Under the pieces are notes generated by a model, which saw only the letters and a program-made list of their open reading frames with translations, made no database searches and was not told where the DNA came from. Positions 2 to 59,206 of a DNA stretch of 64,000 nucleotides are shown here, in pieces. The DNA lies in NCBI GenBank assembly GCA_002721305.1, contig PBKA01000015.1, positions 1 through 64,000 on the forward strand, written 5' to 3'. Within the stretch, counting starts at the first letter, position 1, and each line of letters starts with the position of its first letter. Both the position numbers and the translations under genes were made by a program. Source of the DNA: Acidimicrobiaceae bacterium. Its GTDB lineage: Bacteria; Actinomycetota; Acidimicrobiia; Acidimicrobiales; Poriferisodalaceae.

Positions 2-1012
2 ATGGACGGTTTTGAGGCCACTGAAGGCATAGTGATGATGGCGGCGACCAACCGACCGGACATCTTGGACCCTGCCCTTCTTCGTCCCGGCAGATTTGAT
101 CGCCAAGTCGTAGTGCCTCTTCCTGAATTCGAAGAGCGAAGCGCAATCTTGGCAGTCCACGCGAAAGATAAGAGCATTGACCCGAACATTGATCTGGAGA
201 CCGTCGCTAAGGGCACCCCGGGTATGAGTGGTGCTGATCTCGCAAACCTTGTCAATGAGGCTGCCCTCAACGCTGTGCGGATGGACCGGGAGTCGATAAC
301 GCAGGAAGATTTTGAAGCGGCGAGAGATCGCGTACTAATGGGACAGCGCCGCGAATCTGTCGCGATGACAGATCGAGAAAAAGAAGTCACCGCATATCAC
401 GAAGGCGGACATGCCCTCATCGCGACCCTCTTTGCGAACGCCGACCCAGTGCACAAGGTGACTATTTTGCCGACCGGCCAGGCACTTGGTGTCACCATGC
501 AGTTACCCGAAGAACGTCACTCTTACTCTCAGGATTACATTGAAGATCGGCTGGCAGTTCTGTTCGGTGGTCGCATGGCCGAGGATACGGTTTTCGGAGT
601 CACATCAACCGGCGCCGCTAACGATCTAATTCAGGGAACAGAGCTGGCGCGAAGAATGGTGACTGAGTGGGGAATGAGCGACCGCGTCGGTCCGATGGCG
701 TGGGGTTCTGACAATCAGGTTTTCCTAGGTGAAGGCCTGGTAAGCGGCCGCGACTACAGCGACGACACGGCGAGAGTCATCGACGAGGAAGTAGAAAGGA
801 TCCTACGAACTCAGGAGGGTCGCGCTCGTCAGGCACTGATTGAACATAGAGGTGCCCTTGATCGCATCGCTGCGGCACTGCTTGACAAGGAAACCATCAC
901 CGGTGAGCAAGTCGCTCAGTTAATCCCAGAAGCAACCGAGCCAGACATAGAGGGAGAGCCGTTGCCGGAGACAGCGAAGCCACCTCCGATCGGTCAGTCC
1001 GGATCCGACTAG
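2..1012 (+). CDS. ftsH: ATP-dependent zinc metalloprotease FtsH, C-terminal part (cut by window edge)
   Basis: Membrane-anchored AAA+ protease that unfolds and degrades membrane and unstable cytosolic proteins. 336 residues are visible; the first ATG is internal to the AAA domain, so the real start lies upstream of the window. Visible are the end of the AAA module with the second region of homology RPGRFDR (residues 28-34), the helical lid, and the peptidase domain with zinc motif HEGGH at 133-137 (usually HEAGH) and the likely third zinc ligand D208 in TGAANDL. The acidic, proline-rich tail is normal for actinobacterial FtsH. The gene ends tail-to-tail with the next gene, sharing 4 bases. 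Family assignment is certain; transmembrane segments and Walker motifs are outside the window. Confidence 0.97.
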   Translation: MDGFEATEGIVMMAATNRPDILDPALLRPGRFDRQVVVPLPEFEERSAILAVHAKDKSIDPNIDLETVAKGTPGMSGADLANLVNEAALNAVRMDRESITQEDFEAARDRVLMGQRRESVAMTDREKEVTAYHEGGHALIATLFANADPVHKVTILPTGQALGVTMQLPEERHSYSQDYIEDRLAVLFGGRMAEDTVFGVTSTGAANDLIQGTELARRMVTEWGMSDRVGPMAWGSDNQVFLGEGLVSGRDYSDDTARVIDEEVERILRTQEGRARQALIEHRGALDRIAAALLDKETITGEQVAQLIPEATEPDIEGEPLPETAKPPPIGQSGSD

Positions 1013-53346: not shown

Positions 53347-55023
53347 TTAGACCGTGGTGGTGATCGATTGAAGACCCCGGGCCGCCTTGTGGCTCGAACG
53401 AGTGAGCGGCCCGGCTTCTACGTGTTGTATGCCGAGTTCGCGGGCGTGGCCGGCTAGGACTTCGAATGTTTTGGGATCCACCCATCGTTGGACTGGCAAG
53501 TGTTTGCTAGTTGGTCGGAGATATTGGCCTATTGTCACGATGCTGACACCAACAGCCGATAAGTCTCCTAGCGCGGAAACCAGTTCGTCGTCGGTTTCGC
53601 CTAGTCCTGTCATGATCCCTGATTTTGTTATGGAGCCGTGCCCGTGTGCCCGAGCCAATAGGGTGAGGCTTCGGGCGTAGCTGGAGTTGGTTCTGACGGC
53701 ACGTTGGAGTCTCGCGACGGTTTCTAGGTTGTGGTTGACCACGTCGGGCTGCGCTGCGAGCACTGCCTCTAAAGGGCTTGTTTTCCCTGCAAAGTCGGGA
53801 ATAAGAGTCTCGATCGTGGTGTGGGGGGTCTTGGCGCGGATTGCTTTCAAAGTTTCTACAAATCCGCCGGCGCCTCCGTCTTCTAGGTCGTCGCGGGCTA
53901 CCGCTGTGATGACGACGTGACTCAGACCCATTTTGACAATTGCTTCTGCGACTCGGTGCGGTTCTTCTTTGTCCAGGGGCTCGGGTTGTTGGGTATCTAC
54001 CAGACAGAAACCGCAGGCACGAGTGCAGCGGCTTCCGTTGATCATGAAGGTTGCGGTGCCCTCACCCCAGCATTCGTAAATGTTGGGGCATCCGGCTTCT
54101 TCGCACACCGTTGTTAGTTCGAGGTTGCGCAATGTTGACCGCACTCGTCGGTATCCGTCGTTGAGTTCGACGCGGGTTTTCATCCATTCGGGTTTTCGCT
54201 CCGTGATCGATAGTCCCTCTGAGAGACCTGTTGCATCAAGCCTTCGTTGTCGTCCTTTGGTCGGTTTACGATCTCGTAAAAGGACTTTTACTTCACCCCT
54301 TTGGGTGGTCGTTCCACTGTCGGGGGGTTGAAATGTGTCCACCTTCTTCGTGCGTTGCGGAAACGCAGTTACTGCTATATCAGATCCTTCGTTTCCCCAG
54401 GTCTCAATCGCTCTAGCGGATATTTTCTCGACGACTTCACGCATGGAGGCGTGTATGCCTTCGTTTCGTAAATTCGTGACTGATAGTTCCTTGATGCCGC
54501 ATGGCACTATGTGGTCGAACCATGACAGGTCTGTGGTGGCGTTAAGAGCGAAGCCATGCATGGTTCGACCTCGACTCAATCGGACCCCGATCGCCGCAAC
54601 TTTCCTTGGTCGTTTGCTGGTGGGGGCGACCCAGACGCCCGGGTATCGGGTCATTCGACCGCAGTTCTCGAGCCCTAGGTCGTTGAGTGCGTCAATAAGA
54701 ACTTGTTCGACCTGATGAACGTAGTCCCTAGTCTCAGCGAGTCCACCGCCTCTCCGACCGGGTAGCGACAACACTGGATAGCCGGTGACCTGTCCTGGTC
54801 CGTGGTAGGTGATGTCGCCGCCGCGGTTGGTCGACTCATAGGTGGCTCCCACTGTTGATGGGTCAATGAGAAGGTTCGAGAGGTCTGTATTGGGGCCGCC
54901 AGTGAAAACGTGTTGGTGCTCCATCAAGAGGAGGTGGTCGTCCTGGCTGGATTCGAAGAGTCGTTGCTGGAGGTCGCGCGCTTCTTGGTAATCAACGCGA
55001 CCCAACCATCGGACCCGAAGCAT
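53347..55023 (-). CDS. lipB-lipA: LipB-LipA fusion: octanoyltransferase + lipoyl synthase in one polypeptide
   Basis: 558 residues in one open frame. Residues 1-225 are LipB, which moves octanoyl from acyl carrier protein to target lysines; the catalytic pair is K141 (RKVAAIGVR) and C175 (IVPCGI). A basic linker of about 50 residues follows. Residues 280-558 are LipA, a radical-SAM enzyme that inserts two sulfurs. Its auxiliary cluster cysteines are C307, C312 and C318 (CEEAGCPNIYEC), the SAM-cluster cysteines C333, C337 and C340 (CTRACGFC), and the conserved RSS motif is at 542-544. Both halves have all the key residues, so a bifunctional lipoylation enzyme is likely. Dihydrolipoamide dehydrogenase is encoded 53 bases upstream in the same direction. 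Confidence 0.96.
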   Translation of the reverse strand: MLRVRWLGRVDYQEARDLQQRLFESSQDDHLLLMEHQHVFTGGPNTDLSNLLIDPSTVGATYESTNRGGDITYHGPGQVTGYPVLSLPGRRGGGLAETRDYVHQVEQVLIDALNDLGLENCGRMTRYPGVWVAPTSKRPRKVAAIGVRLSRGRTMHGFALNATTDLSWFDHIVPCGIKELSVTNLRNEGIHASMREVVEKISARAIETWGNEGSDIAVTAFPQRTKKVDTFQPPDSGTTTQRGEVKVLLRDRKPTKGRQRRLDATGLSEGLSITERKPEWMKTRVELNDGYRRVRSTLRNLELTTVCEEAGCPNIYECWGEGTATFMINGSRCTRACGFCLVDTQQPEPLDKEEPHRVAEAIVKMGLSHVVITAVARDDLEDGGAGGFVETLKAIRAKTPHTTIETLIPDFAGKTSPLEAVLAAQPDVVNHNLETVARLQRAVRTNSSYARSLTLLARAHGHGSITKSGIMTGLGETDDELVSALGDLSAVGVSIVTIGQYLRPTSKHLPVQRWVDPKTFEVLAGHARELGIQHVEAGPLTRSSHKAARGLQSITTTV

Positions 55024-56545: not shown

Positions 56546-56635
56546 CTATACAGCGATGAGGACTTGCGCGGCGAACGCGACGAGTATGGCGAGGCCAGTT
56601 ACCAGTGCTGTGATGATCAGTGCTCTTGTGCTCAC
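56546..56635 (-). CDS. 29-residue single-span membrane peptide
   Basis: A GTG-started short frame with stop TAG at 56546-56548 encodes MSTRALIITALVTGLAILVA and then FAAQVLIAV, a basic start followed by one complete transmembrane segment. It lies upstream of lpd on the same strand and is divergent from the thioredoxin-like gene. No strong ribosome binding site is seen (GGACG well upstream). The all-hydrophobic composition and clean frame suggest a real small protein; its role is unknown. Confidence 0.5.
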   Translation of the reverse strand: MSTRALIITALVTGLAILVAFAAQVLIAV

Positions 56636-56685
56636 TGGATCTGAATTTAGCGTCCAACGACGTGCTGGCCCATAGCCTTTGGTCT

Positions 56686-57243
56686 GTGGGATCCGCATTT
56701 AGACAGAGCGCAATCGTTTTGGGGTTAGTTCTTCTGGTTTCTTGCGATACCGGTGGGGTTTCTGAAGGTTCCGTTGGTTCGACTATCCCGAGCACCACCA
56801 CCAGAACAGAGGTAACTATTGAGAATCCTGTCGCGGTGGAAAAGCTCGATGCGGGAGTGCCGGCGGCGCTCACCGTGTTGGAGCGTTCCACTGTTTTCGG
56901 AGAATTATTTGATCCGTCCTCCTTGGCCGGACACGAGGTCCTTTTGTGGTTTTGGGCGCCTTGGTGAGGGGCTTGCAACAATGAGGCAGCGGCGGTCGCC
57001 GCTCTAAGTAATCAGAGTGACATAGCTGTGGTCGGGTTGCCTGGGCGAGATGATTCCTCCGCTCATTTGGCTTTTGTTGAGCGTCACAACTTAGGTCATC
57101 TAGTTCACATTGAAGATACCGACGGAACACTTTGGAGCTATTTCGGAGTTTCTTCTCAGCCGACTTGGATATTCTTTCGCGCCGATGGCGCTGTGACTCG
57201 GGGACGGGGGGCTTTGTCCGCCGTGTTATTTGAATCTGGTTGA
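56686..57243 (+). CDS. Thioredoxin-fold lipoprotein (MPT53/TlpA-like) with in-frame TGA, probable selenocysteine
   Basis: 185 residues if the TGA at 56965-56967 is read through. The GTG start at 56686 gives a textbook lipoprotein signal ending in the lipobox LVSC (C20). The thioredoxin domain starts about residue 70 (FGELFDPSSLAGHEVLLWFWAPW). The active site reads W, TGA (94), G, A, C97, where relatives have W-C-x-x-C. After the TGA the frame stays open with helix and strand blocks (IAVVGLPGRDDSSAHL, DGTLWSYFGVSSQPTWIFF; cis-proline P159). A TGA exactly at the nucleophilic cysteine, plus a downstream hairpin, indicates selenocysteine insertion. A TGC-to-TGA nonsense change or a read error is the alternative. 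Expected role: thiol-disulfide exchange on exported proteins. Confidence 0.82.
56988..57003 (+). promoter_or_regulatory. Candidate bacterial SECIS hairpin
   Basis: AGCGGC (56988-56993), loop GGTC (56994-56997), GCCGCT (56998-57003): a perfect 6-bp stem with a GGUC loop, 26 bases after the TGA. The apical loop of the E. coli fdhF SECIS is also GGUC, and bacterial SECIS loops lie roughly 16-37 bases downstream of the UGA. No extended lower stem is obvious. Because the stem is made of alanine codons (GCA GCG GCG GTC GCC GCT), a hairpin could also form here by chance. Confidence 0.6.
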
Positions 57244-57278: not shown

Positions 57279-57713
57279 ATGGCTCGTCGTGTCGTAAGTT
57301 GTGAACGACTCATATCTGCTGACGCTTCTGTGATCTTTGATGTGTTGACGGATCCGTCTCAACACGCGGCAATCGACGGATCGAACACAGTTCAAGGCCA
57401 TGTCGGTAAACAAGAGCGCTTATCGCTGGGAAGTACTTTCGCGATGAGGATGCGGTTAGGTGTTCCGTATCGCATCAAGAGCCGGGTGTTCGAGTTCGCG
57501 GAGAATCGGTTAATTGCATGGGGGCATTTTGGCGGGCACCGCTGGAGGTATGAGTTGCGGCCTGTCGAGGAGCGTACGTTGGTTGTGGAGTCTTTTGATT
57601 GGTCTACCTCGCGTGTGCCTCTGCTAATCGAACTGGTCGGCTACCCGCGCCGACATAAGAAGAACATGGAGCGCACGTTGTTCAGACTTGCCGGCTTGGT
57701 CGAGTCAAGTTGA
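57279..57713 (+). CDS. SRPBCC-fold (START/polyketide cyclase-like) protein
   Basis: 144 residues. Starts RRVVSCERLISADASVIFDVLTDPSQHAAIDGS, the usual beginning of the helix-grip ligand-binding fold, and ends in the long C-terminal helix (RRHKKNMERTLFRLAGLVES). Such proteins bind hydrophobic ligands or act as small hydrolases/cyclases; the ligand cannot be predicted. It begins 36 bases after the thioredoxin-like gene on the same strand and is followed at once by a lipoprotein gene. Confidence 0.83.
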   Translation: MARRVVSCERLISADASVIFDVLTDPSQHAAIDGSNTVQGHVGKQERLSLGSTFAMRMRLGVPYRIKSRVFEFAENRLIAWGHFGGHRWRYELRPVEERTLVVESFDWSTSRVPLLIELVGYPRRHKKNMERTLFRLAGLVESS

Positions 57714-58201: not shown

Positions 58202-59206
58202 TTAGTCGGGTTCGATGACCCATACGTCTTCTTCGAATTGGCGTTCAAGTTTTTTTTGTAGCTCCCCTAGCGTCCGATCTTTGGGGTTGCGAACGAGTAC
58301 GGCTTCATTGGCTAGTCGAATTATCGTGTCGTCGCGTCGACCCATCGCTTTTCCGAATTCGTTGCCGGTTTTTGGTGCCTCATCGTTGGCAATCGTGACG
58401 GATCGGGCCCCGGACAGCAGTTCGTGGAAACGTTTCTGTGTGGCGTCAGGCCAGCGTTCTTCCATGCCCTCGAATGCGAGGACGACCGCATAGGGAACTG
58501 CTGCGGCGGCCGCTGCTTCCGCTCCCAACATTTCGGCTCCTAAGCCAATGCCGGTTATTACCTGAAGGTCGGGATGCATTTCTACTTTCGCTCTGAGCAG
58601 ATCAATTATTCGTCGGCGCACCGAAAGGGTTGTCGAATTTTCTCCGTAGCCGCCAAGTTCTGGGGGCCGGTGTCCGAAGACTGCGACGCTGTGGGCTGTG
58701 TCTACGATTGCGTTATCTGCCGTGGAGGGCCGATCCCCTTGGAGGCCTCGGACGATTGCGTCCGTGAAAATTCCCCCGGATTGGCTTGCTTGTTGCGCTG
58801 CGGCGGTTGTCGCGAGCTGGTCGGCTGCCTCGTTGAGGCGGTGACCCGCGTGACCTTTTACCCAGACGAATTCAACGTCGCCTCGAGCGTTGACCAACTC
58901 AATGAACGGCTCCCATAGATCTCGGTTCGCTACTGGTTCTTTCTTCGAGTTCTTCCAGTCTCGCTTGAGCCACCCTTTCCACCACTCCTGGACAAAACAA
59001 TTGACCACGTATGTGGAGTCACTGTGAACCCGGAGGGAACCATCAAGGGTTTGCACCGCTGCGCTTGCGGCCATGAGTTCCATCCGCTGGTTCGTTGTGT
59101 GGGGGTCGAAGCCTGATGACCACAGGCCTTGGTCAACAACAAACGCCCAACCGCCAGGTCCGGGGTTACCCAGACAGGCTCCATCGGTATATACGTCGGT
59201 GGTCAT
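58202..59206 (-). CDS. rnhA: RNase HI fused to a YpsA-like SLOG domain
   Basis: 334 residues. Residues 1-135 are RNase HI with the catalytic acids D8 (YTDGACLGNPGPGG), E43 (RMELMAA), D63 (HSDSTYVVN) and D129 (NEAADQLA). Residues about 173-305 form a Rossmann-like domain with VAVFGHRPPELGGYG, VITGIGLGAEMLGAEAA, and DEAPKTGNEFGKAMGRRDDTIIRLAN. This matches the YpsA/DUF1273 branch of the SLOG superfamily, which is thought to sense or process nucleotide-derived ligands. RNase HI removes RNA from RNA-DNA hybrids. The combination suggests nucleotide-ligand control of, or cooperation with, R-loop processing. Both domains appear complete. Confidence 0.9.
   Translation of the reverse strand: MTTDVYTDGACLGNPGPGGWAFVVDQGLWSSGFDPHTTNQRMELMAASAAVQTLDGSLRVHSDSTYVVNCFVQEWWKGWLKRDWKNSKKEPVANRDLWEPFIELVNARGDVEFVWVKGHAGHRLNEAADQLATTAAAQQASQSGGIFTDAIVRGLQGDRPSTADNAIVDTAHSVAVFGHRPPELGGYGENSTTLSVRRRIIDLLRAKVEMHPDLQVITGIGLGAEMLGAEAAAAAAVPYAVVLAFEGMEERWPDATQKRFHELLSGARSVTIANDEAPKTGNEFGKAMGRRDDTIIRLANEAVLVRNPKDRTLGELQKKLERQFEEDVWVIEPD

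Follow-up and report, generated by a model that had tools for sequence, protein, structure and literature searches.

A probable bacterial SECIS element with a conserved GGUC loop in a thioredoxin-like selenoprotein gene of Acidimicrobiales

A hairpin located directly downstream of an in-frame TGA in the window (the whole stretch of 64,000 nt that was analyzed) is very probably, as judged from sequence comparison, a real bacterial SECIS element of the ordinary kind, which would direct selenocysteine (Sec) into a thioredoxin-like redox protein. The computed results are that the UGA is conserved, that the hairpin is conserved and covaries, that the hairpin is lost in the homologues carrying cysteine (Cys), and that the Sec machinery is present. 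In the mechanism that we envisage, SelB carrying Sec-tRNA-Sec would bind the GGUC hairpin in the mRNA via its C-terminal winged-helix domain, and Sec would be delivered, in place of release, at the UGA lying 26 nt upstream of the loop. The product would be a thiol-disulfide oxidoreductase that is exported, probably carries a lipid anchor and uses Sec-x-x-Cys as its active site. The hairpin is an additional well-supported case of a known element type, and the main extra is a SECIS common to Acidimicrobiales that shapes the choice of codons and amino acids. The features are as follows.

56653..57243 (+): predicted selenoprotein gene for a TlpA/ResA/DsbE-like thioredoxin-fold lipoprotein, read through TGA (frame open apart from the TGA; Pfam matches; homologues run on both sides of it)
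56743..56745 (+): lipobox cysteine of LVLLVSC, predicted lipoprotein anchor, read from the translation
56965..56967 (+): in-frame TGA as the predicted Sec codon, first position of the UxxC active site WAPW-U-GAC
56974..56976 (+): TGC, predicted resolving cysteine, second position of UxxC (invariant alignment column)
56988..56993 (+): SECIS 5′ arm AGCGGC (sequence, folding, covariation)
56994..56997 (+): SECIS apical loop GGTC (GGUC), at the same offset in most homologues
56998..57003 (+): SECIS 3′ arm GCCGCT (sequence, folding, covariation)
57241-57243 (+): terminal TGA of the gene

When the TGA is translated as U, the frame 56653-57243 (+) gives a 197-codon stretch in which the active-site part reads WFWAPW-U-GAC-NNEAAAVAAL; the start codon is uncertain, GTG at 56620 or 56686 being the candidates. 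The protein matched the Pfam families Redoxin, AhpC-TSA and Thioredoxin (with similarity to PF08534/PF00578), and it has the thioredoxin-fold sequence with a UxxC active site by which TlpA/ResA/DsbE-like proteins are recognized. Since the NCBIfam scores were below the curated cut-offs for both dsbE (44.9 of 123 bits) and ResA (30.5 of 170 bits), the protein was placed in neither of these named subfamilies. Using a family profile, the closest solved structures were found to be Mycobacterium tuberculosis DsbF (3ios, E 1e-42) and DsbE/MPT53 (1lu4, E 2e-35), exported CxxC oxidoreductases to which the likeness is a profile match and which carry Cys where the protein here has Sec. The product is probably an exported TlpA/ResA/DsbE-like lipoprotein and would represent a Sec-containing counterpart of the DsbE/DsbF-ResA type of actinobacteria, with a redox role and lipid anchoring that the sequence suggests. 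The UxxC selenoproteins of the Redoxin, Prx-like and Trx-like kinds are a large known group, also in marine surveys (PMC2398784, PMC13188914). They share with the present protein the thioredoxin fold, the UxxC motif and the PF08534/PF00578 similarity, the comparison being with the group as a whole; the present gene belongs to a WFWAPWUxxC lineage of Acidimicrobiales.

The first-pass annotation had pointed out a perfect 6-bp stem, AGCGGC/GCCGCT, closing on GGTC 26 nt after the TGA, and this is exactly what positions 56965-57003 contain (TGA GGG GCT TGC AAC AAT GAG GCA GCG GCG GTC GCC GCT), the stem beginning 20 nt after the TGA. On the two strands of the 64 kb together, there is only this one case of a perfect 6-bp Watson-Crick stem closing on GGTC. 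When the same protein was recoded synonymously (same amino acids, codon usage drawn from the flanking codons), a 6-bp stem with GGTC appeared in 1.06% of the recodings, a figure that rose to 10.8% if the loop could be of any sequence. The two caveats raised at that stage, namely that the element is built from alanine codons and that no lower stem is evident, are both fair: the Ala-Val-Ala codons (GCN GTN GCN) force the two loop-adjacent pairs, while the third pair and the wobble bases of the loop are free of this constraint, and below the stem RNAfold adds just two pairs, across a bulged C. Folding gave a divided answer, in that the isolated 16-nt hairpin (− 10.0 kcal/mol) was equaled in none of 200 shuffles, whereas the 66-nt region was no more stable than its shuffles (z = − 0.28). 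Rfam gave no matches in the window. Taken alone, the hairpin is weak evidence, modestly beyond chance, and it is the comparison with homologues that decides.

A homologue at E ≤ 1e-6 was found in 181 of the 298 genomes of the order, and among the matches listed, most homologues have one in-frame TGA. Homologues whose active-site codon is TGA are found throughout the order and keep the sequence on both sides of it; the nearest named record, an Acidimicrobiales metagenome-assembled genome with 79% identity, has the same hairpin. The comparison covered 20 Cys homologues and 87 Sec loci, the latter giving 84 different stretches of 66 nt, with the TGA standing at the same codon in all the 84 and Cys in the others. 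Three features were found in this set, with synonymous recoding across homologues (pooled codon usage) as the null. One is that 80 of the 84 distinct Sec homologues have GGTC at TGA+29..32, as compared with 8.3 expected. Another is that TGA+26 and TGA+35, which are two third codon positions, are paired in 81 of the 84 (U-A 59, G-C 11, C-G 11), while 29.7 ± 4.4 were expected. The last is that the GGTC loop together with at least 4 bp is present in 69 of the 84 (2.4 ± 1.5 expected) and in none of the 20 Cys homologues. Thus, the pairing and loop conservation in the TGA homologues that the first-pass annotation had set as its check was obtained. The covariation score was 0.319 against 0.093 for shuffled data, a value reached in 0 of 500 shuffles, and slid partners gave at most 0.122; these shuffles ignore the kinship of the sequences, which counting on a tree partly corrects. 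On a protein tree from which the hairpin codons had been left out, TGA+26/+35 switched at least 8 times between standard pair types, and the four neighboring pairs that vary on both sides showed 5–8 switches each. The pattern is not uniform: in this register, seven of the 87 Sec loci form no stem, most relatives have a C·A or C·C mismatch at the fourth pair below the closing pair, and the free prediction by RNAalifold, weak on its own, gave a consensus of 3 bp only with little energy. When the genome was searched with a covariance model of the element, no further credible copy came up. Five weaker matches to that model were also examined, and none of them fits a selenoprotein frame.

These data bear on the possibility that the TGA is recoded to Sec by means of another signal and that the hairpin is a by-product of the Ala-Val-Ala codons. 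The two forced pairs are in keeping with it, and so is the window's own element, at a 1% chance under synonymous recoding. However, among the 84 homologues there is near-fixation or covariation at the loop's wobble bases (G and C) and at the pair between two wobble positions, the hairpin is not kept in the Cys homologues, and the synonymous null is unfavorable to it, so that we regard this explanation as very improbable. Moreover, the amino acids encoded in the arms follow the pairing (e.g., Gly-Ala-Val-Ala-Leu/Ser): where the 5′ arm encodes Gly (GGT), the 3′ arm of most such relatives encodes Leu, Ser or Arg, at a site that is Glu or Ala in the Pro-bearing relatives. The homologue comparison therefore overcomes the alanine-codon caveat, and the earlier suggestion that the hairpin independently supports UGA recoding holds, given its conservation, the compensatory changes at synonymous sites, its absence from the Cys homologues and the complete Sec machinery.

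This machinery was found in the source genome (1.94 Mb, 89% complete, draft in 31 contigs). The genes selA (398.6 bits), selB (286.6 bits) and selD (355 bits) all scored over the cut-offs, selA adjoins selB, and the SelB has a winged-helix domain, through which SelB reads SECIS elements. A tRNA-Sec with anticodon UCA (54.8 bits, Rfam) is located at the very end of contig C1 (locus L009, 1-90, minus strand); its 3′ end is cut there, and it was missed by ARAGORN. Among the genomes of the order, selA is present in 86 of the 87 with a TGA homologue and in 93 of the 211 others (Fisher p 7e-23), the former being taken from the matches listed and TGA genomes with weaker matches counting among the latter. 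The SelD of the genome is itself of the Sec type (HGAG-U-ACK), and 32 nt downstream of its UGA stands a 7-bp hairpin that is conserved among its relatives, with the loops CGTGC, CGTGT, GGTTC, GGTCG and similar at TGA+35..39. A G-U in the loop is common to the SelD and thioredoxin-like hairpins, which would fit the reading of both by one SelB.

Because the genome is a draft, one might take the TGA for a normal stop codon, a sequencing error or a mutation in a pseudogene; this explanation, which we consider extremely unlikely, is refuted by the recurrence of the same TGA, between conserved flanks, in dozens of independent genomes, and the Sec genes in the genome also speak against it. A changed genetic code with UGA read as another amino acid, for which the open frame and nothing beyond argues, has just as negligible a probability. 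It is refuted by the genes that end in UGA elsewhere in the genome (e.g., the neighbor 57279-57713 and selD); in addition, the UGA aligns here with the catalytic Cys, and a tRNA-Sec with a UCA anticodon is present.

The preferred reading, a SECIS element, also agrees with what is known of such elements. The bacterial model (bSECISearch) specifies an upper stem of 4–16 bp, 16–37 nt between the UGA and the apical loop, and a minimum free energy of at most − 7.5 kcal/mol (PMC13188914). The hairpin departs from this model in no stated point: it lies in the coding region directly downstream of the Sec UGA, and its loop of 4 nt (GGUC), its 6-bp stem, its spacing, which had earlier been called usual, and its energy as a 16-nt hairpin are all within these limits, although many relatives have the one mismatch described above. 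The likeness to the Escherichia coli fdhF element, also proposed at first, applies to the apical loop and not to the whole element. K-12 fdhF (NC_000913, codon 140) has GCA-GGTC-TGC at TGA+21, with a spacing of 18 nt from the UGA as against 26 nt here, and its GCA/UGC pairs are followed by a bulged U and then by a lower stem. The fdhF type is marked by an upper stem of 3 bp with a bulged U beneath it; here, six uninterrupted pairs occur and no bulged U was found, leaving GGUC as the sole feature in common. At the corresponding place, E. coli fdnG has GCAAGTCTTGC in place of GCAGGTCTGC.

Six relatives have the UxxU form (WFWAPWUPFU, followed by PTVV). In these, a pair of in-frame TGAs is spaced three codons apart, and a single GGTC hairpin lies at 26 nt from one UGA and 17 nt from the other, so that both may depend on one SECIS. 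Some genomes were also seen to carry several TlpA-like paralogues with Sec, a number of them near each other (e.g., on C253 of G171 and on C11 of G042 and of G107, and in G214). A broader reading, which we put forward tentatively and think somewhat less likely to be right than wrong, is that Acidimicrobiales have in common a SECIS class defined by a GGUC tetraloop, an unbulged or mismatched stem and a fixed 26-nt spacing, which would be strong enough to impose itself on the codons that follow the active site, and even on the amino acids there, and which in the UxxU paralogues would use one hairpin for two UGAs.

Standard gene callers cut the gene at the UGA, and its selenoprotein family extends through a whole order; literature searches of open-licence papers found no selenoprotein paper on that order. 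The natural stem variants on a fixed loop are useful for learning what SelB needs in a SECIS without the bulged U. Two further observations concern the surroundings of the gene. At 53347-55023 (−) of the window, LipB (octanoyltransferase) and LipA (lipoyl synthase) are fused in one ORF of 558 aa, each scoring over its NCBIfam cut-off, and at 58202-59206 (−), an N-terminal part of RNase HI is followed by a C-terminal part weakly similar to PRK13660.
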